Part shown: piece after piece, positions 2,608 through 20,840 of the stretch
How positions within the stretch are numbered: position 1 is the stretch's first letter
How the letters are laid out: every line of letters starts with the position of its first letter
DNA from: Bacilli bacterium
Lineage (GTDB): Bacteria; Bacillota_I; Bacilli_A; RFN20; CAG-826
Assembly: GCA_017479485.1 (NCBI GenBank)
Contig: JAFVCC010000051.1
Location: forward strand, 1-43,892
Length of the DNA stretch: 43,892 nt
Direction: 5' to 3'
Translations under genes and position numbers: made by a program
The notes under the pieces: model-generated
Databases searched by the model: none
What the model was told of the DNA's origin: nothing
What the model saw: the letters and a program-made list of their open reading frames with translations, nothing else

Positions 2608-2993
2608 AGACATTACGAGTCGTCGCAGCATATATAGAGAAAGACGGCTGCATTTTCGCCGCAAAACGCGCCTATGGATTCCTCAAAGGAAGATGGGAAT
2701 TCCCCGGTGGCAAAATCGAAGCGGGGGAGACCCCGGAAGAGGCGATCGTTAGGGAAATCAAGGAGGAACTCGATACCGACATCGCCGTCGATGGCTTCTT
2801 CATCAACGTTCAATATGACTATCCGGAGTTCCATCTCGACATGGATGTCTTTCGTTGCCACGTGATCGGAGGAAGGCTGGAAGTGAATCCAGAGATCCAT
2901 GGTGAAGAAGCCTTCATCCCTAAGGAATCGCTGCTTGAGGAGCAGTGGTGCCCGGCGGATGAAATCATCGCGAAACGGATCGTTCAAGGGTAA
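2604..2993 (+). CDS. NUDIX hydrolase (MutT-like)
   Basis: 129 residues, with a NUDIX box at 36-58: G36-x5-E42-x7-R50-E51-I-x-E54-E55, the metal-binding helix that hydrolyses nucleoside diphosphates linked to another group. The usual glycine after the EE pair is aspartate (D57). WEFPGGKIEAGE and the short length match the MutT/CTP-pyrophosphohydrolase branch, which cleans oxidised or non-canonical nucleotides. The start ATG overlaps the previous stop (ATGA), which implies translational coupling to the DUF2075 protein. Substrate cannot be read from sequence. Because an ADP-ribosylglycohydrolase follows, ADP-ribose is also conceivable. A weak ACGGC/GCCGT hairpin follows at 3032-3046. Confidence 0.88.
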   Translation: MKTLRVVAAYIEKDGCIFAAKRAYGFLKGRWEFPGGKIEAGETPEEAIVREIKEELDTDIAVDGFFINVQYDYPEFHLDMDVFRCHVIGGRLEVNPEIHGEEAFIPKESLLEEQWCPADEIIAKRIVQG

Positions 2994-3086
2994 TCAGCTA
3001 TCTCCGCAAATTATGGATAAAACGGAAAATAACGGCTTTTTGCCGTGAATTTTGCGCAATTTTAGTTCATTTAAGCTTTCTTGTTA

Positions 3087-3113
3087 TTGCGAAAAACGCG
3101 ATTTTGTTATCCT
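3087..3113 (+). promoter_or_regulatory. Candidate promoter for the ADP-ribosylglycohydrolase gene
   Basis: TTGCGA (3087-3092), a short 15-bp spacer, then TATCCT (3108-3113), 33 bases before the ATG. A-T-rich surroundings support it; the spacing is below the usual 17. An upstream TTG codon at 3081 falls inside this promoter, which argues against the longer reading frame being used. Confidence 0.35.
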
Positions 3114-3146
3114 CTTAATATAGATATAACGCGAGGAGGTTTTCCC

Positions 3147-4253
3147 ATGTCCAACTACAAAACCATGATTTCCCTTCATTCTTATAATGGCACCTTAGGC
3201 GCCGCGATCGGCGACGTCTATGGGTCTTACTACGAATTCCAGCATGGACCCAAAACCCCAAAGCATGAGATCCGCATCCATGAATCCTCATGCTTCACCG
3301 ACGATACTGTCCTCACCGCTGCCGTTGCGGATTACCTCAAACGTAAGACGTCGGGGGAAAACGTGTCTCCGACGCAAGTCGTCCAAGCCTGGGCGCGGAA
3401 ATATGCCGATGCCGGATATGGCGGCTATTTCCGTTATCACTGGCTTTATAACGACGATCCGAAACCCTATAACTCCTTTGGCAACGGCTCGGCGATGCGG
3501 GTCTCTTCCGTCGCCTATTTCGCCAATGATTTAAAGGAAGTTGAGGAACTCGCGACGGAAGTGACCGCGATTACCCATAACCATCCTGAAGGCATCAAAG
3601 GAGCGGTGGTCATCGCCACCGCCATCTTCATGGCCTTCAATGGAGCCTCCCGCGAGGAGATTGGTAACTATGCTTCAAAGCGTTACGACCTCAATCTGGA
3701 TTACGATGCCATGATGAAAGAACTCGGCCATGGCGAAGAAATCTGCCAAGTCACCGTACCCCAAGCGCTTTGGTGCTTCCTCCATAGCGATTCCTTCGAG
3801 GACTGCCTTAGGCTATGCCTTCATCTACGCTTCGACGCGGATACGTTAGCCGCGATTGCTTGTCCTATCGCTGAAGCCTTCTATAAAGAGATACCCGAAG
3901 AGTTTATACTCGAGACTAAAGCGAGGCTGCCTCAAGATATCCTTGCCGCGTTAGAAAGCGTGCCCAAGGCAACTAAATATTGCCTAGAGCAGGGGCATAG
4001 TCCGTCGTTAGAGAATTATTGCCTTGTTTTTGCCGCGTTTCCCTTGGGCGGGAAAAGAGAAAACGCCAATGGGAAAAGCAGCGCAAACTTAGCCTTTTAC
4101 AGCGCAAACTTAAATGTCCTACGCAAAAAACGTCGAAGTGGTGGGATGAACTCTGATCATTTATCGAAGCGAAAGACCATAGCCCCTGTCGAGCCGCGTC
4201 AATTCCGCTTAAGCGCGATTAGTAAAGGGAGGAATCAATCTCTCCCTTCCTGA
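3147..4253 (+). CDS. ADP-ribosylglycohydrolase (DraG/ARH family) with abnormal C-terminal tail
   Basis: 368 residues from ATG 3147, chosen because a strong GAGGAGG lies 7 bases before it. The family removes ADP-ribose from proteins or other acceptors using a binuclear metal site. The motifs are present: GAAIGDVYGS near the N-terminus, CFTDDTVLT (TDDT metal ligands), GNGSAMR, THNHPEG, and the late DADTLAAI ligands. In the last motif the usual GGDxDT is RFDADT, losing the glycines but keeping the aspartates. The family fold normally ends about 280 residues in; the final ~85 residues (from about KRENANGK) look like translated non-coding DNA. They include a 13-bp direct repeat and run into the end of a decayed gene on the other strand, so the native stop has probably been lost. 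The enzyme core may still be active. Confidence 0.85.
   Translation: MSNYKTMISLHSYNGTLGAAIGDVYGSYYEFQHGPKTPKHEIRIHESSCFTDDTVLTAAVADYLKRKTSGENVSPTQVVQAWARKYADAGYGGYFRYHWLYNDDPKPYNSFGNGSAMRVSSVAYFANDLKEVEELATEVTAITHNHPEGIKGAVVIATAIFMAFNGASREEIGNYASKRYDLNLDYDAMMKELGHGEEICQVTVPQALWCFLHSDSFEDCLRLCLHLRFDADTLAAIACPIAEAFYKEIPEEFILETKARLPQDILAALESVPKATKYCLEQGHSPSLENYCLVFAAFPLGGKRENANGKSSANLAFYSANLNVLRKKRRSGGMNSDHLSKRKTIAPVEPRQFRLSAISKGRNQSLPS
4079..4112 (+). repeat. 13-bp direct repeat CAGCGCAAACTTA, period 21 bp
   Basis: Copies at 4079-4091 and 4100-4112, within the anomalous tail of the ADP-ribosylglycohydrolase frame. It marks the start of the rearranged stretch and may be a relic of inserted DNA. 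Confidence 0.6.
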
Positions 4254-4615: not shown

Positions 4616-4848
4616 TTAGTCGTCGCGGAGCGGCGGAAATGCAACACGCAACGAGGGAAATCTTTTATCTGTCTTTTCTATAGAAGGACGCTTCAAATCA
4701 GAAAACATCCAAAATGGAAATTGCATTTCACGTCGCAAAAATATCGCTTCGCGTCGATTGGTCTTTCTAATGGAGTGCCTGCTTCTTATTCTTTTTCCGC
4801 GCAAGCGCATTAGATGTGTACTCCCGCGTTCGCTGCGAAATAATAGTA
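4616..4848. other. Intergenic stretch before the two-component genes
   Basis: No convincing gene. It should hold the promoter of the LytTR regulator, but I see no clear -35/-10 pair. A GTG at 4816 would extend the regulator by 11 residues that match nothing in the family, so the ATG at 4849 is preferred. The stretch is more A-T rich than its neighbours. Confidence 0.5.
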
Positions 4849-5565
4849 ATGAAAACGATTCGAGTTGCCATCGTAGACGACGAACAGGCTCCAGCCTACC
4901 GTCTTTTTTCATTTCTCAATAATTTCGCGGAGAAACAGGGCTTAAAAATCGATACGGCGGTTTTCGATAAACCCCTCGCCTTCTTGGCCGCGTTCCATTG
5001 CGATTACGACGTTGTCTTCCTCGACATCGAAATGGAGCCGATGAACGGCATCGCATTGGCGAAGAAAATCCGTGAGAAAGACTCCACGGTCTTTTTGATC
5101 TTCGTTACCAACCTCGCCCAATACGCGATCGAAGGCTATAGCGTCTCCGCCTTCGACTACATCCTTAAGCCCGTCGTCGAGAACGCCTTTGAGCTCAAGA
5201 TGTCCCGTCTGCTGAAGAAGCTCTCCGCGGACGTCGAGGAAAAAATCAGCATCCGCACCAACCGGGAAACCCTTGCCGTCGACGTCCACGACATCGAATA
5301 CATCGAGCCGAACAACCACCACGTCATCTACCATTTCGTCGACAAGACCATCGAGTCCTATGAGGCGATGAAAGACGTGGAGAAGCGCCTGCCTCCTCAT
5401 TTTGCCAAGTGCAACCGTTATTACCTCGTCAACATGGCAAGGGTGAGCGCGGTGCGCGGGGATTCGGTATACCTTGGAAAAACGGAACTCAAAATCAGCC
5501 GCAGCGAAAAGAAAGAGTTTTTGAGGAGACTCTCCGATTATCTCAGCGTAAGGGGGTCCCGTTAA
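4849..5565 (+). CDS. LytTR-family response regulator (AgrA-like)
   Basis: 238 residues. The receiver domain (1-~120) has the acidic pair D10/D11 in IVDDEQ, the phospho-acceptor D59 in FLDIEM, T87 in FVTN and K107 in ILKPV. The C-terminal half (~138-238) is a LytTR DNA-binding domain, with IRTNRETLAVDVHDIEYIEP at its start and FAKCNRYYLVNMARVSAV near the end. Such regulators bind pairs of ~9-bp direct repeats about two helical turns apart and control surface or peptide-signalling genes. There is no clear ribosome site before ATG 4849. The stop is 1 base before the sensor kinase start, so the pair is one operon. The glycosidase cluster just downstream is the likely target. No AgrB/AgrD peptide gene is visible nearby. 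Confidence 0.9.
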   Translation: MKTIRVAIVDDEQAPAYRLFSFLNNFAEKQGLKIDTAVFDKPLAFLAAFHCDYDVVFLDIEMEPMNGIALAKKIREKDSTVFLIFVTNLAQYAIEGYSVSAFDYILKPVVENAFELKMSRLLKKLSADVEEKISIRTNRETLAVDVHDIEYIEPNNHHVIYHFVDKTIESYEAMKDVEKRLPPHFAKCNRYYLVNMARVSAVRGDSVYLGKTELKISRSEKKEFLRRLSDYLSVRGSR

Positions 5566-5566
5566 C

Positions 5567-6856
5567 ATGGATGCGAACTATGTCATGGTCGTCATGGCGG
5601 AGATGCTCATCGCGACCGCCTTGTTCAGCCTGTCTTACCCGCGGAGAAAATTATTCGTCGTCCGCGTCAACGTCTCCCTCGGGGCGAGCATCGGCCTCGC
5701 CTACGTCCTTGGGCGCTTCTTGCCCTCGACGTCCATTTTCCGCTTTCTGAACTTCCTGCTGCAGTACGTCCTTTGCTCCGCCTGCGTGCTTTGCTGCTAT
5801 AAGACCAGCATCATCGCCGCGATGCTCTCTGGCGCCCTAGGCTACGCAACCCAGCATTTCGCCTATAACTTTTCCTCTTTTATCGGGGTGTGGTGGAGTT
5901 ATAACAAGGTCGTTACGCTGCCAAACTACTATCTCTACACCCTCTTGACGGACCTAACGTTCAAAGCTCCCGTGTACGTCGGCTTTTATTTCGCCTTCGC
6001 CCGCCCGATCACCGGCGTGGAAATGAAAGGACGGCATCGCGTCGCGGCCATCATCACGGCGATCCTCACCGTTTTGGTGTGCGTGGGCATCAACCGCTTC
6101 GCCCGCGATAACGCCCGACGCGACACCAACACGGTCATCGCGGAATCGCTTTATGCGATGGTGTGCTGCCTTGCTTCGTTATTCATCACCCTCTTCTTGA
6201 GGAAAACCCATGACCTCCGGATGAACGAAGACGTCCTTCGCCATCTTCTCGCCGAAGAGAAGCACCAGCTCGACGTGAAGAAGGAAAACGCGGAATATGT
6301 CCATCTGAAATACCACGATCTCCAAAAGAGGCTTCAGAAGTTCAACGGAAGGCTCTCCCAAGAGGAGATCGGCGAAATCACCGAGGCCATCGCCATCTAT
6401 GATTCCCCGTTTAAAACCGGGAACAAGACCCTCGACGTCATTTTGACTTCCATCCATCAATATTGCATCGGCAAAGGCATCTCGATGACGTTCCTTGGCG
6501 ATGGGGCATCCTTAGGTTTCCTTGAGGAAGGGGAGATGTATTCCTTGGTCGAAAATGCTTTCGATAACGCGATCGAGGCGGTCGCGAATCTGCCCGAAGA
6601 AGCGCGGCAGATTTCGGCGACGCTGCATCGCTCGGGCGACCTCGTGAGCTTCAACGTCGTCAATTTCTTTGAGGGCAGCCTCGCCTTCGACCGCGGCTTG
6701 CCCAAGACCTCCCACGTTGGGGAGCAGGGGTTCCATGGCTATGGCATGGTCTCCATGAAGCACATCGCGGAGAAATACCAGGGCGGCTTGTCCGTCAACG
6801 CGGAAGACAACATCTTCTCTTTAACGGTTTACTTAATCTGCCCCACGGAGGCTTAA
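5567..6856 (+). CDS. GHKL sensor histidine kinase (AgrC/VirS-like), partner of the LytTR regulator
   Basis: 429 residues. The first ~210 form a membrane sensor of about six hydrophobic segments. A helical stretch then carries the phospho-acceptor H250 in YHDLQKR. The HATPase domain of the GHKL type follows, with N330 and N334 in VENAFDNAIEAV and the glycine box GYGMVSMKHIA. This is the AgrC/CitA-like group that usually works with LytTR regulators. The start is supported by AAGGGGG about 11 bases before the ATG, one base after the regulator's stop. The signal sensed is unknown. In the agr system it is a processed peptide, but no peptide precursor or AgrB-type protease is seen here, so a carbohydrate or cell-envelope cue is equally possible. 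Confidence 0.9.
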   Translation: MDANYVMVVMAEMLIATALFSLSYPRRKLFVVRVNVSLGASIGLAYVLGRFLPSTSIFRFLNFLLQYVLCSACVLCCYKTSIIAAMLSGALGYATQHFAYNFSSFIGVWWSYNKVVTLPNYYLYTLLTDLTFKAPVYVGFYFAFARPITGVEMKGRHRVAAIITAILTVLVCVGINRFARDNARRDTNTVIAESLYAMVCCLASLFITLFLRKTHDLRMNEDVLRHLLAEEKHQLDVKKENAEYVHLKYHDLQKRLQKFNGRLSQEEIGEITEAIAIYDSPFKTGNKTLDVILTSIHQYCIGKGISMTFLGDGASLGFLEEGEMYSLVENAFDNAIEAVANLPEEARQISATLHRSGDLVSFNVVNFFEGSLAFDRGLPKTSHVGEQGFHGYGMVSMKHIAEKYQGGLSVNAEDNIFSLTVYLICPTEA

Positions 6857-6896
6857 TTCCGTACTTTTACCCGACTAAAGGCGGAAAAGACCCCAA

Positions 6897-7128
6897 TTTC
6901 TACAATCATTTTTGCAATAGCCTTGTAAATATTTTGCAATTAGGTAGTAAAAATGCCTGCTTTTCGCGTTGCAATTTTGGCCTTCCACGGCGATTCCGTT
7001 TCGTGCAATGAAAGCGGTTTCTACAATTTTCGTAAATCGTGGGAAGAACTTTTTGCGCAGAAGGTTCTTTCCATGGACTTGCGACGGAAGTAGCTGCTCC
7101 GTCGCCCGTCCAAAAAATCTAAGGAGGT
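6897..7128 (+). promoter_or_regulatory. Leader and candidate LytTR operator of the first GH3 gene
   Basis: The 280-base gap 6857-7136 holds no gene. TTTTGCAAT occurs at 6910-6918 and again at 6932-6940, a 22-bp period that fits LytTR binding to two turns of DNA. TGCAAT recurs at 6970-6975 and 7004-7009. TTTCTACAAT is repeated at 6897-6906 and 7018-7027. A strong AAGGAGGT (7121-7128) precedes the GTG start. The repeats are seen; the operator role is inference. Confidence 0.45.
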
Positions 7129-7136
7129 AAACTTAA

Positions 7137-10100
7137 GTGTTTACGAAAAAAGCGAAGACTCGCAAAAGAGCGTTCCTCGTCCTCGCCGGTGCGGCTTTTG
7201 CCGCGATGGCCGTCGGAGTAGGCGCCTCGATTGCGAACCCCATCTCCACCAATGCGATCAACATGGACTACAAGGGTGTTTTCACATCCGATTACTCCTC
7301 CCTCGCCGAAGCCAAGGCCGCTGCCGATGAGCTCAACGTCGAAATCGCCGCAGAAGGCGACGTTTTGCTGAAAAACGATGGCTCCCTCCCGTTCTTTGGC
7401 GATGAGAAGATCTCTGTCTTTGGCCGGGCGCAGGATAGCATGCAAGGTGCTACCGGTAGCGTAAGTCTCCCCGTCGCTTTGGCCAACGAAGGTTTCAAGG
7501 TCAACCCGTCTCTTCAGTCCTATTATTCAAGCGTCGGCACCTCTATCGGTGTCGAAGACGCTGCGTTCGATGCTTCCATCGAGCAATCCTTCGCGCTTTA
7601 TAACGACGCGGCCGTGGTCATCTTCTCTCGCGGCGGCACCGAAGGCGCAGACTTGAACACCGTCACCAACGAAGTCGAGGACAATAAGGATGGCGATGGC
7701 AACTCTTATGATTGGGAACACCAGGCCCTCTACGACAATCCTGATGACGATAAGGGCGCGTTCAAGCATTACCTGCAGCTCACCGATTCCGAAGAAGCGC
7801 TTCTTGCCAACGTAAAGAAGAACTTCAAGAAGGTCGTGGTCGTGATCAACACGTCCAACGCGATGGAACTTGGCAACCTCCAGGATGACCCCGCCATCAG
7901 CGGCATCATCTGGATTGGCCGTCCGGGTTCCACGGGCCTACGAGGACTCGCGAAGATCCTTAACGGCGAAGTCAACCCCTCGGGCCGCATGGTCGATGAG
8001 TGGATGAGAGACTTCACCGCCGATCCCGTCTGGCAGAACTTCGGCACCAATAAGCAAGTGGGCACCGAACACCTCTATGACTACACCCAAGAACTTCAGG
8101 CCTTTGGCATCAAGTCCCCGAAGCCGGGCAGCGGCAATGGAATGGTCGGTGGCGATGGCTACTATGGCATCGACTACGACGAAGGCATCTACCTCGGATA
8201 TAAATATTACGAGACCGTCTATGCCGAGTTGCTCCGCGACGCGACCATCCGTTACGACCGCAATACCCGCAAGATCGTCAAGAAGGGTGCCATCATCGGT
8301 GAATACAACGCCGCCGAAGCCGCTGAAGAGTGGTGGAAGTTCGCGGTCGTATATCCGTTTGGCTATGGCCTCTCCTACACCGAATTTGAAGAAGAGCTCG
8401 GCAGTATCTATTACTTCGACGATGGCAAGAAACTCCTCCCGACGAGCGTCGGACCGGAACTCTTCAATTCCTCCGAAGCTAGTGGCAAGGCCAAGGTCGA
8501 GAAACTCTATGTCCCCGTCAAAGTCACCAACACGGGCAAAGTCGCGGGCAAGCAGGTCGTCCAAGTCTACGTTACCGCTCCTTATGAGGACGGAAAAATC
8601 GAAAAAGCGGCCGTAAACCTCGTTGGTTTTGCGAAAACAAGCCGTCTCCGCCCCGGACAGAGCGAGACCGTCACCGTCGAGATCAATGTCCAGGATTTCT
8701 CCTCCTTCGACTACAACGACGCGAACGGAAACGACAAGCGTGGTTATGAGCTCGACGCCGGCGAATATTCCATCAAGGTCATGAAGGATTCCCACCGCGT
8801 GAGCGATTCCTATGAATTCAACCTCACCGGCGACGCCTTCCTCGAACTCGACGACTTCAGCCACAACAAGGCGATCCCCGTCTTCTCCAACCATGACTCC
8901 TTCGACACCGTCCGTGGCAACTACTCCACGAACGAAAACGACAAGTACCTCAACGTCAACGCGACCGACGATGCCGGACAGAAACTCCTCAGCCGCACCG
9001 ATTTGAGCGTCGTCGACGCCCAAGGCCTTGTCATCACCGCCGCGGAGCGCAAGCTCTCCGACGACTTCGTGAAGTCGATCCTCTATTACACCGCCTTCAA
9101 CACCAACGATCAGGCGAACTTCGCCGACGATAAGGCCGATAAAGACGCCTACTTCAAGGATAACCTCCTCACCGGCGACCACGAGGGTCACCTCAGCTGG
9201 TACCGCACCGCGGCCGAACTCGATGCCCTCACCGACGGCTGGAAGCAAGTGGCGGCCCACGAAGAAGGCAACGCCGACATCTTGTATCGCCTCTCCGATA
9301 TGGCGGGCCTCGACTATGAGGACAACGTCACCGTTATCAGCGGCGGCAAGTTCGACGGCAAGACCCCGAAGGCGGCTTGGGACCTCTTCATGAACCAGCT
9401 CACCTGGTCCGAAATTCAAACCGTCATCAACTCCGCAATGCGCAAAACCCAAGCCATCAACTCCATCGGCAAATCAGCCACGAACGATCCCAACGGCCCG
9501 AACGACTACGGCGGAAAGTACTGGTGCGATGAGACCGTCGTCTCCTCGACATGGAATGTCGATCTTGGCGAACAATACGGCATCATCAACGGCAACATCG
9601 CCATGTTCTCCGGCAATGGCGGTTGGTATGGCCCAGCCATGAACACCCACCGTTCGCCCTTCTCTGGACGTAACAACGAATACTATTCGCAAGATGGTTA
9701 CCAAGGCGGCGCGATGGCCGCTGCGGTCATCCACGGCGCACAAAGCCGCGGCATCAACGTCTGGGCGAAGCACATGTTCATGAACGACCAGGAAGAGAAC
9801 CGCTCCAGGCAGTGCCTCTTCACCTGGGCTTCTGAGCAAGCGATCCGCGAAATCTATGCCAAGCAGTTCCAGATGGGTCTCCAGGAAGGCGAAGGCTCCG
9901 CTTCGATGGTCGCCTATAACCGTATCGGCGGCGTCGTCGCTTGCGTCAACTACGCGTTCCAGACTCGCCTCCTCCGCGATGAGTGGGGATGGAAGGGCGT
10001 CCTCGTTACCGACTACTACGGCAACAACGCCATCCAAGCGAACTCCATGGACCTCATCACCCGTACCGGCGGCTGCCTCCCCGATGGCACCGCTAGTGGC

Positions 10101-11345
10101 GCGAAGGCCCTCAGCGGCACCTATGACGCCGAAGCCAACAACATCATGATCGGCTCGAACAAAGACGTCGCCTCCAAGACCCAGTGGTACTATGGCCGTC
10201 TCGCCGCTCAGCGCGAACTCTTCGCCGCTGCCAACACCCTAAACAATAAGAACGGCGTCAACACCGCCAACTACGCGGTCAATACGACCACCAGCATCGC
10301 GCTGACCCAAGGCGTCGCCGCGAGCAACGTCAGCGTCGCCATGGATGCCGCGGACCTTAACGGCCGCAGCGCCAAATACGCCATCACCAGTGGCGAACTC
10401 CCGGCTGGACTAAACCTCAACGCCAACACCGGCGCCATCACTGGCACGACGGTTGTTGCGGGCGACTTCAACATCACCGTTACCGCCACCATCGACGGTT
10501 ACATCAGCGCATCCCACAAGTACAAGCTCGAGATTGCGAGCGCCTTCGCCATCGCGGGCAACGAAGGAACCGTCGGCGAGGAATTCAACTGCACGATCGA
10601 CTCCGAAATCGTCACCGCCAACAAGTACACCTCCAGCTTGAAGTACAACCTCATCGAAGGCGAGCTCCCCGCGGGCCTCGCGCTTGATGGCGACACCATC
10701 GTCGGCACCCCGACGGAAGCGGGCACCTTCAAGATCAAGATCAACGTCGTCGGCCAATATAGGAATGGCCGCACGACTTACACCGACACTTATCCGCTGG
10801 AAATCACCCTCGTGATCGCGGAAGGCGAACCGGGCGTCCTACCTCCCGAACCCGTCGTCATCACCGACGTCGAAACCGGCGAAGACGGCAGCCTCATCAT
10901 CCATCTGAGCGATGGCAACGACTACATCGTTTCTAGCGGCAAAGATGGCGTTGATGGCAAGGACGGCGCCGCTGGTGCCGATGGCCTCGATGGCGTCGGA
11001 ATCGCTTCGATCGAAAAGACCGGCAGCGAAAACGGCGTTGATACCTACACCATCACCCTCACCAATGGTCAAACCTTCGTCTTCACCGTCACCAACGGCG
11101 CCGACGGCGCAGACGGCCAAGACGGCGCTCCGGGCGCCAAGGGCGACCAAGGCGAGCAGGGCCCCAAGGGCGACAAAGGCGACAAAGGCGATCAGGGCGA
11201 ACCTGGTCCTAAGGGCGACAAAGGCGACACTGGCGCGGCCGGATCTGGCTGCGGTGGCTCCATCGCTGGCGTCTCGGTCCTCGCAGCGTCTCTTGCTGCA
11301 GCCGCGGCTCTCGTCATCTTCAAGAAGAAAGAGGACGATAAATAA
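7137..11345 (+). CDS. Surface-anchored GH3 glycosidase with permuted domains, Ig-like and collagen-like tail
   Basis: 1402 residues, GTG start with AAGGAGGT 8 bases upstream. After an N-terminal signal/transmembrane segment (~11-36) the GH3 domains come in reversed order. First is the C-domain (~75-410: VLLKNDGSLPF, candidate acid/base E169 in GTEGADL, PFGYGLSYTEF). A fibronectin-III-like domain follows (~450-560), then the barrel domain (~750-1030: NTHRSPFSGRNNEY, WAKHMFMNDQEENR, catalytic D959 in VLVTDYY). This order is known from some rumen beta-glucosidases (Butyrivibrio, Ruminococcus). Two Ig-like domains (~1045-1226, each with GELPAGL) and Gly-X-Y collagen-like repeats (~1268-1288 and ~1321-1368) lead to a C-terminal membrane anchor ending FKKKEDDK. 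It acts outside the cell on beta-linked glycans; the exact sugar cannot be read. It is first in the cluster controlled, probably, by the upstream two-component pair. Confidence 0.9.
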   Translation: MFTKKAKTRKRAFLVLAGAAFAAMAVGVGASIANPISTNAINMDYKGVFTSDYSSLAEAKAAADELNVEIAAEGDVLLKNDGSLPFFGDEKISVFGRAQDSMQGATGSVSLPVALANEGFKVNPSLQSYYSSVGTSIGVEDAAFDASIEQSFALYNDAAVVIFSRGGTEGADLNTVTNEVEDNKDGDGNSYDWEHQALYDNPDDDKGAFKHYLQLTDSEEALLANVKKNFKKVVVVINTSNAMELGNLQDDPAISGIIWIGRPGSTGLRGLAKILNGEVNPSGRMVDEWMRDFTADPVWQNFGTNKQVGTEHLYDYTQELQAFGIKSPKPGSGNGMVGGDGYYGIDYDEGIYLGYKYYETVYAELLRDATIRYDRNTRKIVKKGAIIGEYNAAEAAEEWWKFAVVYPFGYGLSYTEFEEELGSIYYFDDGKKLLPTSVGPELFNSSEASGKAKVEKLYVPVKVTNTGKVAGKQVVQVYVTAPYEDGKIEKAAVNLVGFAKTSRLRPGQSETVTVEINVQDFSSFDYNDANGNDKRGYELDAGEYSIKVMKDSHRVSDSYEFNLTGDAFLELDDFSHNKAIPVFSNHDSFDTVRGNYSTNENDKYLNVNATDDAGQKLLSRTDLSVVDAQGLVITAAERKLSDDFVKSILYYTAFNTNDQANFADDKADKDAYFKDNLLTGDHEGHLSWYRTAAELDALTDGWKQVAAHEEGNADILYRLSDMAGLDYEDNVTVISGGKFDGKTPKAAWDLFMNQLTWSEIQTVINSAMRKTQAINSIGKSATNDPNGPNDYGGKYWCDETVVSSTWNVDLGEQYGIINGNIAMFSGNGGWYGPAMNTHRSPFSGRNNEYYSQDGYQGGAMAAAVIHGAQSRGINVWAKHMFMNDQEENRSRQCLFTWASEQAIREIYAKQFQMGLQEGEGSASMVAYNRIGGVVACVNYAFQTRLLRDEWGWKGVLVTDYYGNNAIQANSMDLITRTGGCLPDGTASGAKALSGTYDAEANNIMIGSNKDVASKTQWYYGRLAAQRELFAAANTLNNKNGVNTANYAVNTTTSIALTQGVAASNVSVAMDAADLNGRSAKYAITSGELPAGLNLNANTGAITGTTVVAGDFNITVTATIDGYISASHKYKLEIASAFAIAGNEGTVGEEFNCTIDSEIVTANKYTSSLKYNLIEGELPAGLALDGDTIVGTPTEAGTFKIKINVVGQYRNGRTTYTDTYPLEITLVIAEGEPGVLPPEPVVITDVETGEDGSLIIHLSDGNDYIVSSGKDGVDGKDGAAGADGLDGVGIASIEKTGSENGVDTYTITLTNGQTFVFTVTNGADGADGQDGAPGAKGDQGEQGPKGDKGDKGDQGEPGPKGDKGDTGAAGSGCGGSIAGVSVLAASLAAAAALVIFKKKEDDK

Positions 11346-11377
11346 TCATCCTTCTCGCTTCTAACCAACATTAGTGG

Positions 11378-11412
11378 CGGGGCCCTTCCACGCGAAGGGC
11401 CCCGTTATATCG
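11378..11412 (+). terminator. Hairpin after the first GH3 gene
   Basis: CGGGGCCCTT (11378-11387), 7-base loop, AAGGGCCCCG (11395-11404), a perfect 10-bp GC-rich stem. The following TTATATCGTTT is a weak T-tract, so it may terminate only partly and set a lower level for the downstream lipoprotein and second GH3. Confidence 0.7.
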
Positions 11413-11470
11413 TTTGTCGTCGTGAAATCGTCGGATTCAGGAAGACAGCAGTATTGAAAGGGAAAAACAT

Positions 11471-13321
11471 ATGAAACAGCAAAATAGAAAAGGCCTTTGG
11501 TTGCTCACCGCAGCTTCCTTGCTCGCCCTAGCCGCCTGTGGTGGCGGTAGTGGGGGCCAAGCATCTTCCACTTCACCGCAAGATGCCTCCGCAAGCGCGC
11601 CGGTCCAATCCTCGGACCAAGGGCATAAATCCGAGAGTCAGTCGACTTCCGTCGATCCGGGCACGGTTTCCTCTTCCCAAGGTGGCGATAGCAGCGTCCC
11701 CGCCGCGATGGTATCCGTGACCTTCAATTTCAATTACCCCGGCTCGAAGCCCACCCAAGTGAAAGTGGAAGCGGGCTCTACCGTCGAAAAACCCGCCGAT
11801 CCGGTCCGCGAAGGATATGGCTTCACGGGTTGGTATACGGAAATCGGCTGCGTGAACCTCTTCGATTTCAACACCCCGATCGCGAAGAACACCGTCTTGT
11901 TCGCGGGGTGGTCGGAATCGAACCTCACCGTTTCCTTTAACTACAATTACGTCGGCGCGCCTGCGATTACGACCGTCACCGTCGCCAAAGGCAGCTCCGT
12001 CCAAAAGCCCGATGATCCCGAACGCGAGAACTATGCGTTCGAGGGCTGGTACCTCGAAGCCGCGGGCGAGCATGAATACGACTTCAACCTTCCCGTCATG
12101 GAATCGTTCACCCTTTACGCGAAGTGGACGCTTTCCGTGGCGACGGTCACCTTCGACCTTGGCTATGAGACCGAGAATCGGACGAGCACCGTCTCCGTGC
12201 GCATCGGCGAAGCGGTGACCGCGCCAATAGAGCCGCGCCGCGAAGGATATGACTTCCTGGGCTGGTTCCGCGCCGCGAACGATTCGGTCGCCTATGATTT
12301 CTCGAGCATCGTCTCCGATAGCTTCACGCTGACCGCGAAATGGGAAATCATCGTCCTGACTGTCACCTTCAATTACAACTACGCCGGCGCGACGAGCTCC
12401 ACCGTCAACGTCAATTATGGCGAGAAGGTCGATGAGCCTGCGAATACCCGCACCGGCTACATCTGTGCCTGGATGCTTGGTGATGCGGAATTCGACTTCG
12501 ATACGCCCATTACCGAAAGCATCATCCTCGTGGCGTCCTGGACCGCCGAATCGAGCGATTCCTATACCTATACCTATTACTATAACTACACGGGCGCTCC
12601 GAATAATGGCGTCTATAAGACCGACAGCGTCAAAAAGCAAGCCAAGCCTTCCCGTCCGAGCGATCCCACCCGCGATGGCTATTACTTCTCGGGCTGGTAT
12701 ACCGATGCGGATTGCACGACCGCATTCAACTTCAACGCCCGCGCCACCTCGGCGCAAAGCGCCTATGCGAAGTGGCTCGACATCTATACCCTCGAGGCGG
12801 AATACATCGACCTCGATGGCAAGATGGGATTCGGCTTCTCGGTGAACCTGACCGGCACCGACCTCATCTATCCCGCGAATGGCTCGCAAGCCAGCAACGG
12901 CTACTACGTCTCGGGCATGTATTACGAGAACGCGGAGCTCGAATTCGACTTCAACGTCGATAAAGACGTGGACGACGCGGTCATCATCATGCGCATCCAG
13001 TGCGAGTTCGACACCAAGACCTTTAACCCCGACACCTATACGGTCGAGATCAATGGCGTGGCCCTCGACTACGAGGAAATCACCATCGAAGGGCTTGAGG
13101 AAGATACCCGTTCGGATGTCCGCCGTCCGTTCATCAACGTCCAGATGAACGACCGCGCCGTCTTGAACAAAGGCCCCAACGTCCTTAAGCTCATCACCAC
13201 CAATAGTGTCTACCATGGCAACACCCGCCAGGCCGACGCGCCGATGCTCGACTGCGTCTACGTCGCTACCGATGCGAAGCTGACCTGGTCGCCCAAAGTG
13301 TCCAACCTTGAAGGAAAATAA
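11471..13321 (+). CDS. Lipoprotein with InlB B-repeats and a CBM6/35-like domain
   Basis: 616 residues. Signal peptide and lipobox LAAC with acylated C23, then a Ser/Gln-rich linker to ~75. Five InlB-B/Listeria-Bacteroides repeats follow (about 76-437). Each has VTFNFNY-like strands, a KP.DP.REGY.F.GWY core and a closing LFAGW or LYAKW; the fourth is degenerate (CAWMLG replaces the GWY core). The last ~177 residues start with LEAEYIDL and contain SNGYYVSGMYYENAELEFDF. This matches the EAE...(A)SxGxYV pattern of family 6/35 carbohydrate-binding modules, so glycan binding is inferred. A GAAAGGG ribosome site precedes the ATG. Placed between two GH3 glycosidases, it probably holds the glycan or host surface for them. 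The glycan-binding call is less sure than the lipoprotein and repeat calls. Confidence 0.85.
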   Translation: MKQQNRKGLWLLTAASLLALAACGGGSGGQASSTSPQDASASAPVQSSDQGHKSESQSTSVDPGTVSSSQGGDSSVPAAMVSVTFNFNYPGSKPTQVKVEAGSTVEKPADPVREGYGFTGWYTEIGCVNLFDFNTPIAKNTVLFAGWSESNLTVSFNYNYVGAPAITTVTVAKGSSVQKPDDPERENYAFEGWYLEAAGEHEYDFNLPVMESFTLYAKWTLSVATVTFDLGYETENRTSTVSVRIGEAVTAPIEPRREGYDFLGWFRAANDSVAYDFSSIVSDSFTLTAKWEIIVLTVTFNYNYAGATSSTVNVNYGEKVDEPANTRTGYICAWMLGDAEFDFDTPITESIILVASWTAESSDSYTYTYYYNYTGAPNNGVYKTDSVKKQAKPSRPSDPTRDGYYFSGWYTDADCTTAFNFNARATSAQSAYAKWLDIYTLEAEYIDLDGKMGFGFSVNLTGTDLIYPANGSQASNGYYVSGMYYENAELEFDFNVDKDVDDAVIIMRIQCEFDTKTFNPDTYTVEINGVALDYEEITIEGLEEDTRSDVRRPFINVQMNDRAVLNKGPNVLKLITTNSVYHGNTRQADAPMLDCVYVATDAKLTWSPKVSNLEGK

Positions 13322-13322
13322 T

Positions 13323-13760
13323 ATGTTTGCTCTTATTCTCAAGAACTTGAAGGAGAACATCGTCTCCTATATCTTCGTGGGAATCGGCATCGCGTTATCA
13401 CTGCTCGTCTGCTTCTATTACCCGGCGACGGGCGTGACCGCCTTCACCCCGAAGATCAACCCATCCATCGTCATTTTCTCCGCAATTTCTGCGGGAATTG
13501 GCATTATTAGCTTCTGCGCAGGCTTTAAAACCGTGAAGTATTTGGCCTTCGTCATGGGCTTGTTCGCCTTCCTTTCTTACGCCAGGGAGGAGGTCACCTA
13601 CGTCGCGAACATCTTCACGGGTATCGACGGAACCTCGTTCTCGCTGGAATTCATCCTCACGTTTGTCTTCCTCATCGTCGCGATGCTCGCGTTCCTCCTT
13701 GGGGGAATCATCCAGAAGGAGATCCTGTTCCAGAAGAAACCCGCCGCGAAGGAGAACTAA
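13323..13760 (+). CDS. Small four-helix membrane protein of unknown function
   Basis: 145 residues from ATG 13323, chosen over a TTG at 13308 because AAGGA lies 7 bases before the ATG and the longer form would overlap the lipoprotein. There are four hydrophobic segments (about 17-35, 49-67, 72-87, 109-130) and a basic tail ending KKPAAKEN. No family is recognised. It lies 1 base after the lipoprotein stop and 3 bases before the second GH3 gene, so all three are translated from one message. It may help membrane placement of the glycosidase or act in uptake of the released sugar; neither is shown by sequence. Confidence 0.8.
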   Translation: MFALILKNLKENIVSYIFVGIGIALSLLVCFYYPATGVTAFTPKINPSIVIFSAISAGIGIISFCAGFKTVKYLAFVMGLFAFLSYAREEVTYVANIFTGIDGTSFSLEFILTFVFLIVAMLAFLLGGIIQKEILFQKKPAAKEN

Positions 13761-13763
13761 ACC

Positions 13764-16673
13764 ATGAATGTCATCAAATCCGTAAAACTTTGGCGCACCC
13801 TCTTCGTGGTGTCCGCAAGCTTCCTCGCCGTGGCGCTCGTAGGCGGACAAATCGCCTACGATCAGTCCGCCGCTATTAATTCCGCCTTCAACCTCAAGAC
13901 CTACGAGGTCATCAAGGGCGACGATACGGGCGAGGACACCGAGTACTTCAAACGCGAATATACCGATCCGGAAAAGCTCAAGGCGTATACCGATTCCGTC
14001 TGCCGTGAGCTCGAGCGGGAAGGCATGGTGCTCTTGAAGAACGAAAACGCTGCTTTGCCTTTGGCCGCAGGCAATAAAATCTCCTTGTTCGGCCAGGGAT
14101 CCGTCCAACTGAACTACGGCGCGACGGGTTCCTCCTCCACCGATACCTCGGGCATCGCGAACCTCAAGACTGCCCTTTCATCTTTCGAGGTGAACCCAAC
14201 ACTTTGGGACTTCTACCAAAGCGGCGCAGCTTCGGGGTATCGGAGAGGAAAGCCCGGCCTGATCTACAAGATGAACGAGGCCCCTTGGAGCGAATATGGC
14301 TCGGTGATGTCCTCCTTCAGCGCCTATGGCGACGCGGCCATCTACGTCCTTAGCCGCGATTCGGGCGAAGGCATGGACCTTTCCACCGTCAATAGCGATT
14401 GCGAAGGCGGCGTCTACCTCAACCTCCACGCGAATGAGCGCGAGGTCTTGAAGCAACTAAGCGCCTTAAAGGCTTCGGGCACCTTCAAGAAAGTCGTATT
14501 GCTCATCAATTCGCCCGTTCCCGTCCAACTCGACTTCATGTTCGACGCGGACATCGACATCGATTCCGCATTGTGGATCGGCAACCTCGGCTCCACCGGC
14601 GTCTACGCGATCGATGACGTCCTCTCGGGCAATGTCTCGCCTTCAGGCAGGCTTTCCGACACCTTTCTCAAAGACAACTTCGCCTCCCCCGCGGCGGCGA
14701 CTTGGGGATTAAACGCGAACAAGTCCTTCGCCCTTCCCTATAGCAACGCGGGCGATTACCCGGGCTTCAACAACACCCAGAACACCTATGCCGTCTACAC
14801 CGAAGGCATCTATGTCGGTTACCGTTATTTCGAGACCCGTTACGCGGACGTCTTAATGGGATCCCCGCGCGCTGGGGCCTTCGATTATGACGCGAAGGTC
14901 GCTTACCCCTTCGGGCACGGCCTCTCCTATACCGATTTCTATTATTCGGGATTCGCGATGGAGGAGAAGGAGGACCATTTCCTCTTCACGGTCGACGTCA
15001 TGAACATCGGCGGCGTCAAAGGGAAAGAAGCGGTGCAGCTCTACCTACAAAAGCCTTATACCGACTATGACCGCGAGCATGGCGTGGAGAAATCCGCCGT
15101 CGAGCTCGTCGCCTTCGAAAAGACGGGCGAACTCGATACCGGTGACTCCGAGACCATCACCTTGCGCGTCGAGAAGGAACAACTAAAGTCCTACGACGCG
15201 AACTACGCGAAGACCTACATCGTCGACGAAGGCGACTATTACTTCGCCTTGGGTAGCAACGCCCATAACGCCCTCAACAACATCCTCGACGCCCAAGGAA
15301 TCCTCACCGCCGACTTCTACGTCGACCCGACCCTTGTGGCGACCTACCACCAAGCTGCCTTCGACAAGGAGACCTATAGTCATTCCCCCGTCAACAAAGA
15401 GCAGGCGATTACCAACCGCTTCGACTTCTCGGACATCAACAAATACGAGGGGCGTGGAAGCAATTCCGTGACTTACGCGAGCCGTAACGACTGGGAGGGG
15501 ACCTTCCCGAAAGCGTCGGAAATCCTCTCCATTTCCCCCGCGATGGAAAAGGACATCCTAAGCTACAAACCCTTGCCGGAGAACGATGGCTCGACCATGC
15601 CGACCTATGGCAAGGACAATGGCCTTTCCTTGATTTCCTTCCGCTCCACCCCAAGCAAACCCGTTCCTTACGATGATCCCAAGTGGCAGGACCTCCTCGA
15701 TCAGATGACGTTTGCTGAGCAAGCGTTGCTCATCACCGACGGCCAGCACAATACTTCCCGCGTCACTTCGGTCAATAAACCTGCGACCAAGGACGAGAAC
15801 GGCCCTAACGGCGTCTCGGGTTCCTCCACCAAGGCGAGCTTCCCCTCCGAGGGCATCTGGGCGGCGACCTTCAACAAAGACTTGCTCGAGGAAGTGGGCA
15901 AATGCCTCGCCGAAGACGCCTTAGCCGTCGGCATCACCGGCATCTATGGCCCTGGCGTCAATTTGCACCGCGCCCCCTTTGGCGGACGCGCCCATGAATA
16001 CTTCTCCGAAGATCCTTATCTCATGGCGTTATGCTCCGTCAAGGAGACGATCGGCATGCAGAGCAAAGGCGTCGTCACTTACGTGAAGCACTTCGTCGCC
16101 AACGACGAAGAGACCAACCGCAACGGCGTCGCCATCTGGCTCAACGAGCAGGAAATGCGCGAAATCGTGCTGCTGCCGTTTGAGTATTCCTTCCGTCCCG
16201 ACATGGGCAACGCTCATGCGACCATGACCTCCTTCAACCGCATCGGTTGCCTCTGGACGAGCGCCAGCAGCGCCCTCATGGAGACGGTCTTACGCGACGA
16301 GTGGGGGTTCGATGGCTTCGCGATCACCGACATGGCCTCCTCCAACGCGAAGACGTTCATGACTTTCGTCGATGGCATCGCAAACGGCACCAGCCTCTAC
16401 GATGGCGCGGGCAGCGAGAAAGCGCTCGACGATTACCACAACAACGCCTTCTTCGCGAACAAGATGCGCGAAGCCTGCCACCGCATCCTCTATGTCACCG
16501 CGAACTATAGCGCGGCGATGAATGGCATCTCCGCTGCCGACCGCATCGTCCCGCTCATTACTTGGTGGGAAGCGACGGTCATCGGCCTACGCATTGGCTT
16601 TGGCGTCCTTAGTGGCGCGACCTTGGCTCTGATGGGCGTGGCCGCCTTCTTAAGGCGCAAAGAAATCGCCTAA
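13764..16673 (+). CDS. Second membrane-anchored GH3 glycosidase, also domain-permuted
   Basis: 969 residues with AAGGAG 8 bases before the ATG. An N-terminal membrane segment (~12-32) and a C-terminal one (~935-960, then RRKEIA) would anchor both ends with the enzyme outside. Domain order matches the first GH3: C-domain first (~80-390: GMVLLKNENAALPL, candidate acid/base E202 in SGEGMDL, PFGHGLSYTDF), a fibronectin-III-like domain (~400-500), then the barrel (~640-920: GVNLHRAPFGGRAHEYF, VKHFVANDEETNR, nucleophile D856 in FAITDMASS). It lacks the Ig and collagen-like parts. The two enzymes share an architecture but have diverged, so they probably cleave different linkages of one glycan. It is the last gene of the cluster, followed by a good terminator. 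Confidence 0.9.
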   Translation: MNVIKSVKLWRTLFVVSASFLAVALVGGQIAYDQSAAINSAFNLKTYEVIKGDDTGEDTEYFKREYTDPEKLKAYTDSVCRELEREGMVLLKNENAALPLAAGNKISLFGQGSVQLNYGATGSSSTDTSGIANLKTALSSFEVNPTLWDFYQSGAASGYRRGKPGLIYKMNEAPWSEYGSVMSSFSAYGDAAIYVLSRDSGEGMDLSTVNSDCEGGVYLNLHANEREVLKQLSALKASGTFKKVVLLINSPVPVQLDFMFDADIDIDSALWIGNLGSTGVYAIDDVLSGNVSPSGRLSDTFLKDNFASPAAATWGLNANKSFALPYSNAGDYPGFNNTQNTYAVYTEGIYVGYRYFETRYADVLMGSPRAGAFDYDAKVAYPFGHGLSYTDFYYSGFAMEEKEDHFLFTVDVMNIGGVKGKEAVQLYLQKPYTDYDREHGVEKSAVELVAFEKTGELDTGDSETITLRVEKEQLKSYDANYAKTYIVDEGDYYFALGSNAHNALNNILDAQGILTADFYVDPTLVATYHQAAFDKETYSHSPVNKEQAITNRFDFSDINKYEGRGSNSVTYASRNDWEGTFPKASEILSISPAMEKDILSYKPLPENDGSTMPTYGKDNGLSLISFRSTPSKPVPYDDPKWQDLLDQMTFAEQALLITDGQHNTSRVTSVNKPATKDENGPNGVSGSSTKASFPSEGIWAATFNKDLLEEVGKCLAEDALAVGITGIYGPGVNLHRAPFGGRAHEYFSEDPYLMALCSVKETIGMQSKGVVTYVKHFVANDEETNRNGVAIWLNEQEMREIVLLPFEYSFRPDMGNAHATMTSFNRIGCLWTSASSALMETVLRDEWGFDGFAITDMASSNAKTFMTFVDGIANGTSLYDGAGSEKALDDYHNNAFFANKMREACHRILYVTANYSAAMNGISAADRIVPLITWWEATVIGLRIGFGVLSGATLALMGVAAFLRRKEIA

Positions 16674-18668: not shown

Positions 18669-18762
18669 GCATTGCCCTCATTCTAGGTCACTTAACTCGG
18701 GATTATTTCGCATACGAGACCGCATCGCGGTAAGATAGGGGAGCAATATCGAGGTGAAGTAC

Positions 18763-20652: not shown

Positions 20653-20658
20653 ATGCCC

Positions 20659-20840
20659 GATCGAATAGAGGAGCGCTTGCGAAAAGTAGCCTCGTCCCAT
20701 CAGGCAAAACGGGATGAACGCGAAAGGCAATGGCGCCGAAACCCTCGTCACCGCCTAGTGACGTTGAGTTGGGCTATGGGGAAATACCCCATGGACTCTC
20801 CCAAGGAATATGCCTTGGGTTGGCGCTATTGATGCAAGCG
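20659..20840 (+). promoter_or_regulatory. Lysine riboswitch (L box)
   Basis: Conserved lysine-aptamer elements appear in the right order: AGAGGAGCGC, AGTAGCC, GTCCCATCAGG, GAAAGG (20722-20727), GGCGCCGAAA, TTGGGC, the loop hairpin ATGGGGAAATACCCCAT (20776-20792), and a closing CCCAAGG/CCTTGGG arm followed by TTGGCGCTAT. P1 is formed by ATCGAATAG (20660-20668) and CTATTGAT (20826-20833) with one bulge. The layout closely follows known lysine riboswitches such as that of Thermotoga. Downstream there is no clear T-tract terminator before AAAGGAGGG (20892-20900), so control may act on ribosome access; an alternative pairing CGCTTGC/GCAAGCG (20674-20680 with 20834-20840) may belong to the switch. 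Lysine binding would turn the importer off. Confidence 0.88.

Follow-up and report, generated by a model that had tools for sequence, protein, structure and literature searches.

Gene content of the cluster

The window (a 43,892-nucleotide stretch of DNA from an uncultured, gut-type Bacilli bacterium, contig JAFVCC010000051.1) contains six genes on one strand (+) at 4849-16673, the coordinates given by the first-pass annotation, in the order LytTR response regulator, GHKL kinase, permuted GH3-1, repeat lipoprotein, 4-TM protein and permuted GH3-2. The LytTR-type response regulator (RR; 4849-5565, +) combines a receiver domain (Pfam Response_reg, 9.9e-16) with a LytTR DNA-binding domain (9.1e-18), and the GHKL sensor kinase (HK; 5567-6856, +; HATPase_c_5, 1.1e-13) has a multi-TM sensor with short loops and no large extracytoplasmic domain; by a simple hydropathy count, the window kinase has 5 TM segments, and 110 of 126 members of its family have 6 or 7. 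GH3-1 (7137-11345, +) is a permuted long form with Glyco_hydro_3_C, Fn3-like and Glyco_hydro_3 domains, two He_PIG domains and a collagen stretch; it begins with a signal/TM segment and terminates in a collagen-like stalk followed by GCGGSIAG-TM-KKKEDDK. The lipoprotein (11471-13321, +) carries five Flg_new repeats (1.9e-58) and an unclassified C-terminal domain, and is followed by a small 4-TM membrane protein (13323-13760, +), named MEM in the present work, which matched no Pfam or NCBIfam family. The last gene, GH3-2 (13764-16673, +), again has the permuted GH3 order in Pfam, with TM anchors at its N- and C-terminal ends; its orthologues share 93% identity in G018 and 86% in G003. Coordinates and Pfam matches bore out the gene set that had been read behind the LytTR/GHKL pair, namely two surface GH3s, a lipoprotein and a small membrane protein.

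Among the six cluster proteins, Pfam identified no transporter and no SusC/SusD homologues; the next solute-binding gene, at 20810, is of family 3 and lies behind a lysine riboswitch. The proposal that the lipoprotein is a carbohydrate-binding (CBM) protein was not confirmed: Pfam gave no CBM model, and the C-terminal domain had no Pfam or PDB-sequence match. A homologue of the lipoprotein in L164 produced a CBM-like match below threshold (E 0.005), and putative glycan binding by the C-terminal domain is possible. Two non-coding elements were also noted: an imperfect inverted repeat just 5' of the GH3-1 ribosome-binding site (7074-7112, +), found in aligned leaders, and a GC-rich hairpin between GH3-1 and the lipoprotein gene (11378-11404, +), kept in two relatives and assigned to no Rfam family, which may be an attenuator or processing site.

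The GH3 enzymes are permuted and membrane-anchored

In both window GH3s the Pfam domains follow the order GH3_C, Fn3, GH3_N within one chain, and the GH3 profile aligned in order with PDB entries 5wug and 5k6l. E202 and D856, the putative catalytic acid and nucleophile, were invariant across 10 aligned GH3s; GH3-1 has an E and a D in like motifs, with deviations at other positions (SQDG, KHM). The structure model of GH3-2 was of moderate quality (pLDDT 74.0).

GH3s of the cluster type are about 950-1400 aa long and carry TM anchors; of 88 complete GH3s, 69 were anchored at both termini. Double anchoring was considered as a mark of GH3s linked to a two-component system (TCS) and found no support; among 80 external loci, which were collected around large GH3s so that small neighbours are mixed in, a TCS lay within 10 kb of 41/79 double-TM and 24/43 other complete GH3s (P 0.71). 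Unlike double anchoring, a size-based genome-wide count did separate GH3s by their proximity to LytTR genes (see below).

MEM, a likely partner of the GH3 genes

When 40 MEM members were scanned, no Pfam or NCBIfam family was shared by them, and a fold search of the AlphaFold model (pLDDT 91.8) against the PDB returned no significant match (best E 0.47). MEM abutted a GH3 gene in 59 of 66 genome-wide matches, all on the same strand, and MEM-GH3 gene fusions occur in several species (checked in L023, L083 and L029). Adjacency and fusion together suggest that MEM most likely forms a complex with the anchored GH3.

LytTR genes are linked to GH3 genes across genomes

Fifteen genomes of the order that are rich in GH3 contained 92 LytTR genes. 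A permuted GH3 lay within 5 kb of 80 of them, and a GHKL kinase adjoined 84; the 12 LytTR genes with no GH3 within 10 kb included several near contig ends. Sixteen genomes that were entered through their GH3 loci contained 88 large GH3s; 48 of these had a LytTR gene within 6 kb, against 4.7 expected, and only 4 of 45 small GH3s not adjoining a large one were near a LytTR gene. In the genome of Anaerobium acetethylicum GluBS11, 7 of 7 large GH3s were close to LytTR. Many of the genomes used are fragmentary MAGs. The linkage is far beyond chance. Among 61 relatives, 17 had both GH3 and LytTR, 2 GH3 only, 1 LytTR only and 41 neither, at a GH3 cut-off (E<=1e-80) that was picked after the data had been seen.

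The six-gene linkage, which the first-pass annotation had put forward for checking in relatives, was conserved in close relatives, being complete in L074 and split over two contigs in G003 (L084, L075); outside the genus, all six gene types were found in two records, L163 and L164. GH3-linked TCS copies number several per genome and differ strongly among congeners; the module has multiplied in the lineage, with several copies per small genome. When plasmids were searched with the kinase, the sole matches were distant GHKL proteins of Paraclostridium.

Divergence of HK and GH3 was correlated over all 68 triplets (r 0.66; 0/2000 permutations as high) and over 43 non-redundant triplets (r 0.33; 0/5000), but not within single genomes (r 0.12; 988/2000), and because the correlation disappears there we do not take it as proof of dedicated HK-GH3 co-evolution.

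Direct repeats near LytTR genes

LytTR sites have been described as 9-bp repeats with 12-bp (11 or 13) spacers, so that 21 bp is a published spacing (PMC6193735). When intergenic DNA near LytTR genes was searched for direct repeats, a peak was obtained at exactly 21 bp (36 regions; other offsets averaged 7.4), which was absent from control regions and was reproduced in other lineages (17 vs 2.4). GH3 loci without LytTR also showed a slight rise at 21 bp (11 vs 4.1, P 0.003), so some of these sites may be used by different regulators or by ones encoded at a distance. The 21-bp peak, as expected of paired repeats of about 9 bp with a spacer of about 12 bp, belongs to LytTR genes as a group; for the window regulator itself there are candidate sites at 4727 and 6910. 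Regulation in cis is supported both by the 21-bp repeats and by the lineage-wide LytTR-GH3 pairing.

The first candidate, a direct repeat of TTCACGTCG and TTCGCGTCG spaced 21 bp apart upstream of RR (4727-4756, +), could be a LytTR site for autoregulation. Probing with TTCACGTCG gave exact matches only in G000 and G018, both at the RR promoter; versions with two mismatches were common and background-like (in G000 15, vs 3 in the reversed control), and the repeat is a tentative candidate. The second, two copies of TTTTGCAAT spaced 22 bp apart in the GH3-1 leader (6910-6940, +), may be a LytTR or an AraC-type site. It had a single match in its own genome, and was kept in the G018 leader and missing from the orthologous leader of G003; exact copies of the 16-base repeat were found in both G018 and G003 between an AraC gene and uxuA (identified by PF03786, 4.2e-124). 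The leader at 6897-7128 had been proposed as the target of the cluster's own regulator, and this was not supported: as the repeat also stands at the uxuA/araC promoter of two relatives, and is missing from a third orthologous leader, we rejected it as proof of LytTR control.

These copies raise the alternative that the LytTR pair chiefly regulates its own expression or that of other genes, and that GH3-1 is under an AraC regulator of the glucuronate regulon through the TTTTGCAA repeat, which would fit with the different repeat carried by the region upstream of RR. We regard this as unlikely, since it leaves the lineage-wide LytTR-GH3 pairing unexplained and since the 21-bp peak persisted after regions near detected AraC genes were removed, although AraC detection was weak (3 ORFs). 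AraC and LytTR regulators could also act jointly.

Envelope glycans and peptide signals as alternatives

A further alternative is that the modules act on the cell's own envelope glycans or glycolipids, not on food glycans, with the TCS sensing the state of the envelope. Double membrane anchoring of the GH3s, a membrane partner that mostly lies alongside GH3, and six cluster proteins without a sugar transporter are all compatible with such a role. Copy number, however, varies strongly between congeners, and two permuted-topology GH3s that have been characterised, GlyA1 (PMC5104943) and BrGH3A (PMC11233000), both came from rumen libraries, the kinetics of BrGH3A showing a preference for beta-1,3-linked glucosides (PMC5104943, PMC11233000); an envelope role thus appears distinctly improbable.

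The usual interpretation of GHKL/LytTR pairs is that they sense quorum peptides. The absence of Agr peptide-processing genes from the pair linked to surface GH3s was upheld, with the linkage kept in relatives: AgrB (PF04647) was found in 0 of 15 genomes, the source genome (62% complete) included. No gap separates RR from HK that could hold a peptide gene, and the leader contains only unremarkable ORFs of 22-53 aa. With no AgrB in the 15 genomes and no convincing peptide gene between the cluster genes, we rejected Agr-type peptide signalling as the main reading. An Agr-like quorum-sensing pair with its peptide genes elsewhere, and the GH3 genes as its target regulon or as chance neighbours, would suit the AgrC/AgrA-like domain make-up and the multi-TM sensor, but is very unlikely given these absences and the several GH3-linked copies per genome.

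A probable two-component-controlled GH3 module

The best explanation, and in our judgement a probable one, is a two-component-controlled, membrane-anchored GH3 module. The multi-TM GHKL kinase would detect a glycan-related or envelope signal and, judging from domain content and operon structure, phosphorylate the LytTR regulator. The regulator would then bind paired 9-bp direct repeats 21-22 bp apart at module promoters (a statistical spacing and a putative binding), and so raise expression of permuted GH3s, presumably active, which TM anchors at one terminus or both tether to the cell surface. The 4-TM partner would be co-expressed with the anchored GH3, probably in complex with it, and the long version of the module, as in the window, adds the repeat-bearing lipoprotein. 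From its GH3 family membership, the module is predicted to trim beta-glycosides at the surface, removing their terminal sugars.

Bce-type kinases read the state of their transporter. By analogy, the anchored GH3 and MEM might constitute the sensing part, and the kinase, having no large outer domain, would sense whether the GH3-MEM complex is working or has substrate bound; we consider this extension speculative and unlikely. If true, each module would be an enzyme-coupled receptor for its own glycan, in Firmicutes and Actinobacteria.

The grouping is shared by many bacteria of the gut and rumen, and so appears to be a widespread and almost undescribed mode of control of glycan digestion. If a large share of gut and rumen GHKL/LytTR pairs control surface GH3s, many of them have been wrongly annotated, and a common means of sensing glycans has escaped notice. 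MEM, whose genes adjoin GH3 genes or are fused to them, offers a direct experimental handle in cultured hosts with the module.

Comparison with known systems

The module shares a GHKL kinase and a LytTR regulator with AgrC/AgrA, from which it differs in having no AgrB in the 15 genomes and GH3 enzymes as its output genes. With the LytTR Regulatory Systems (LRS) of Streptococcus mutans it has in common the LytTR DNA-binding domain and 9-bp repeats; as portrayed in the relevant part of PMC6193735, an LRS consists of a LytTR regulator and a membrane inhibitor and is set apart from TCS, whereas the present system has a receiver domain and a GHKL kinase, and its MEM pairs with GH3. The Gram-positive PULs (gpPULs) of Roseburia and Eubacterium likewise cluster GH genes with regulators, and Ros-7 lists HK and RR[LytTR]; every gpPUL tabled in PMC5320581 includes a transport system, and most of the regulators are of the LacI/AraC kinds, in contrast to our six proteins without a transporter. 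GlyA1 and BrGH3A, in what we draw from PMC5104943 and PMC11233000, have the sandwich domain, FnIII and barrel in the same order as here, while membrane anchors and regulator linkage are features of the present GH3s.

The closest precedent is the 2010 genome paper on Butyrivibrio proteoclasticus B316 (PMC2914790), which places LytTR response regulators near secreted GH3s with a C-terminal TM helix in PULs 7, 21 and 33. It weakens the earlier claim that the cluster is unlike previous systems, in that LytTR-GH3 proximity had been noted in one species; in the portion of that paper concerned, this occupies one sentence, and the 4-TM partner, fusions, permuted order, candidate sites and many taxa are added here. 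What is new is the taxonomic breadth, the MEM partner family, the fusions and the site geometry.

Gene content and surface anchoring of the cluster

Six genes lie on the + strand at 4849-16673 of the window, which belongs to a metagenome-assembled genome of 1.7 Mb and 62% completeness. The order, from gene map and Pfam, is a LytTR response regulator (4849-5565), a GHKL kinase (5567-6856), a long GH3 (7137-11345), a lipoprotein with five Flg_new repeats (11471-13321), a small four-helix membrane protein, MEM (13323-13760), and a second GH3 (13764-16673); AgrB was found in none of 15 genomes searched, the source genome included. Pfam revealed a permuted domain order (GH3_C, Fn3, GH3_N) in both GH3s, and PDB chains 5wug and 5k6l align to GH3 in this permuted order. 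Upstream of the cluster are a Schlafen group 3-type helicase and an ADP-ribosylglycohydrolase gene (364-4253). Directly downstream is a BspA-type LRR lipoprotein (18754-20529), and the gene at 20810 for a family 3 solute-binding protein has a lysine riboswitch (RF00168, 66.4 bits, 20658-20836) directly upstream.

The second GH3 carries transmembrane anchors at its N- and C-ends; the C-terminus of the long GH3 consists of a collagen-like stretch followed by GCGGSIAG, a transmembrane segment and KKKEDDK. Among 88 complete GH3s from loci around LytTR genes in 15 genomes, a count that leaves out 14 further GH3s cut by locus ends, 69 had hydrophobic segments at both ends, 14 at the N-end only, 2 at the C-end only and 3 at neither. 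A GCGGS-type pattern matched 9 of 868 open reading frames of at least 150 aa, and the tail of the long GH3s, in which this motif precedes a transmembrane segment and basic residues, resembles a sorting signal. The motif with such a tail was seen in the window (11270-11345) and at loci L074, L075, L076, L086, L093, L099, L110 and L116, its carriers being long GH3s plus two fragments. Giant GH3s of approximately 1700-2060 aa adjoin LytTR pairs in other families (L130, L137, L141, L146, L149, L155, L156, L182); those inspected have a C-end without the usual transmembrane segment and basic tail.

Linkage of LytTR genes and permuted GH3s in GH3-rich genomes and beyond

The surroundings of every LytTR gene were fetched from 15 genomes of the order, selected for high GH3 copy number; the LytTR gene of the window was assessed on the window itself. 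A permuted GH3 lay within 5 kb of 80 of the 92 LytTR genes, against a chance expectation of about 10-20, roughly estimated from GH3 density in these genomes, and 84 of the 92 adjoined a GHKL kinase; several of the 12 without a GH3 at this distance were less than 3 kb from a contig end. Of 61 relatives, 18 had a LytTR match above the cut-off and 19 matched GH3 strongly, at E<=1e-80 by a threshold picked after seeing the data; 17 had both.

Linkage of all six genes, which the first-pass annotation suggested looking for, was recovered in relatives. The genome G018 retains them in the same order and strand (L074), with 93% identity in the second GH3; in G003 (86%), the set is divided between two contigs (L084, L075) that break within the long GH3. 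Two records outside the genus, L163 from UBA7642 and L164 from a chicken Clostridia MAG, also bring the six gene types together; there the LytTR/GHKL pair sits downstream or upstream of the other genes. Five of the six types, MEM being the one missing, were found at L098, L116 and L222, and two paralogous clusters, L086 and L099, have two inserted genes (BspA-type LRR in L099). Two LRR_5-like proteins are encoded in L099.

A GH3-alignment search of public genomes produced 80 loci, from Lachnospiraceae, Oscillospiraceae, Coriobacteriia, bifidobacteria, cellulomonads, one Streptococcus suis strain and others; a LytTR-GHKL pair was present in 40, and of the other 40 loci 14 are shorter than 12 kb. 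Whole-genome counts were made on 16 of the source genomes, 13 of them picked via pair-bearing loci, and covered 150 GH3 and 148 LytTR genes among the matches listed, with a few more GH3 matches existing. LytTR lay within 6 kb of 48 of the 88 GH3s of at least 930 aa (4.7 expected), and of at least 35 of 75 after removal of one chosen copy from each of the 13 genomes. For GH3s below 880 aa the count was 10 of 56, or 4 of 45 not adjoining a large one; six GH3s of 880-930 aa were excluded from this comparison.

The small membrane protein, a probable partner of GH3

MEM matched no Pfam or NCBIfam family, scattered matches in one or two of 40 scanned members being all that appeared. Its AlphaFold model, a helical bundle of four long helices, is confident (pLDDT 91.8), and gave no significant fold match in the PDB (best E 0.47). 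An iterative search of the loci yielded 46 members, each adjoining a GH3 and 45 of them sharing its strand, a set biased because the loci were picked around GH3 or LytTR. A fairer test was a search of 61 whole genomes (E<1e-7); its 66 matches were confined to 16 genomes, each of which matches GH3 strongly as well, and 59 had a listed GH3 within 600 bp, always on the same strand. Two of the seven exceptions (L092, L106) adjoin GH3 in the gene maps. In several species MEM and GH3 form a single open frame; in the three verified fusions (L023, L083, L029) the MEM domain is N-terminal to GH3. These fusions are the strongest hint at a physical complex.

Candidate regulatory sites

According to PMC6193735, the 9-bp direct repeats bound by LytTR regulators have a spacer of 12 bp, sometimes of 11 or 13. 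Intergenic DNA was scanned, with no sequence preset, for the offset at which near-identical 9-mers recur. Of 263 regions lying up to 7 kb from LytTR genes, 36 had such a recurrence at offset 21 (Poisson P 4e-14); other offsets averaged 7.4 regions and none exceeded 15. No comparable 21-bp peak was seen in 107 regions elsewhere in genomes G060 and G038 (5 vs 4.4) or in 110 regions of four LytTR-free congeners (6 vs 2.6, P 0.05). Offset 21 gave 26 vs 3.4 in intergenic regions beside core genes, 17 vs 2.4 in other taxa's loci near LytTR and 11 vs 4.1 in those without LytTR. The spacing favours LytTR binding, short of proof because AraC-type sites can be similarly spaced. The S. suis HCJ31 locus (L179) contains, at 9868 and 13532, two instances of a comparable repeat (near ACAGATTATG) with 21-bp spacing, one of them directly upstream of GH3.

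The window holds two candidate sites: TTCACGTCG/TTCGCGTCG, 21 bp apart, at 4727 upstream of the regulator gene, and two copies of TTTTGCAAT, 22 bp apart, at 6910 in the leader of the long GH3 (6897-7128). Their sequences differ, which makes it unlikely that both belong to a single regulator. The 6910 repeat is kept in the G018 leader and absent from that of G003. Its exact copy also stands, in both genomes, between a uxuA-type mannonate dehydratase gene and a divergent AraC gene (G018:C206, L283; G003:C202, L285), family assignments having been verified for the G018 pair; the repeat common to these places and the leader is TTTTGCAA. From these copies, the 6910 repeat may be the site of an AraC regulator of glucuronate use. 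Such ownership would hint at a glucuronate-containing substrate, which for the module is a guess.

Proposed mechanism

We propose that the kinase would relay phosphate to the regulator, which would bind at candidate sites, and that the GH3s would form a complex with the partner protein and hydrolyse their substrate at the cell surface. Most of the kinases (110 of 126) have six or seven transmembrane segments, and their loops are short (longest gap, median 29 residues); their ligand would thus be either sensed inside the membrane or brought to them by a partner. Kinase and GH3 distances were correlated across loci and uncorrelated within genomes, which falls short of establishing a strict one-to-one pairing.

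Comparison with known systems

A literature search, with subscription papers mostly outside its scope, turned up no account of the system in its full breadth, of its partner family and GH3 fusions, or of its sites. PMC10222030 mentions LytTR just in passing, and the Roseburia gpPUL paper contains one cluster with a histidine kinase and LytTR response regulator (PMC5320581). The window GH3s share the domain arrangement of ruminal GlyA1 and BrGH3A, as given in PMC5104943 and PMC11233000. Proximity of LytTR and GH3 is already known from Butyrivibrio proteoclasticus, for which PMC2914790 describes three LytTR response regulators, each near a secreted GH3 with a C-terminal transmembrane helix.
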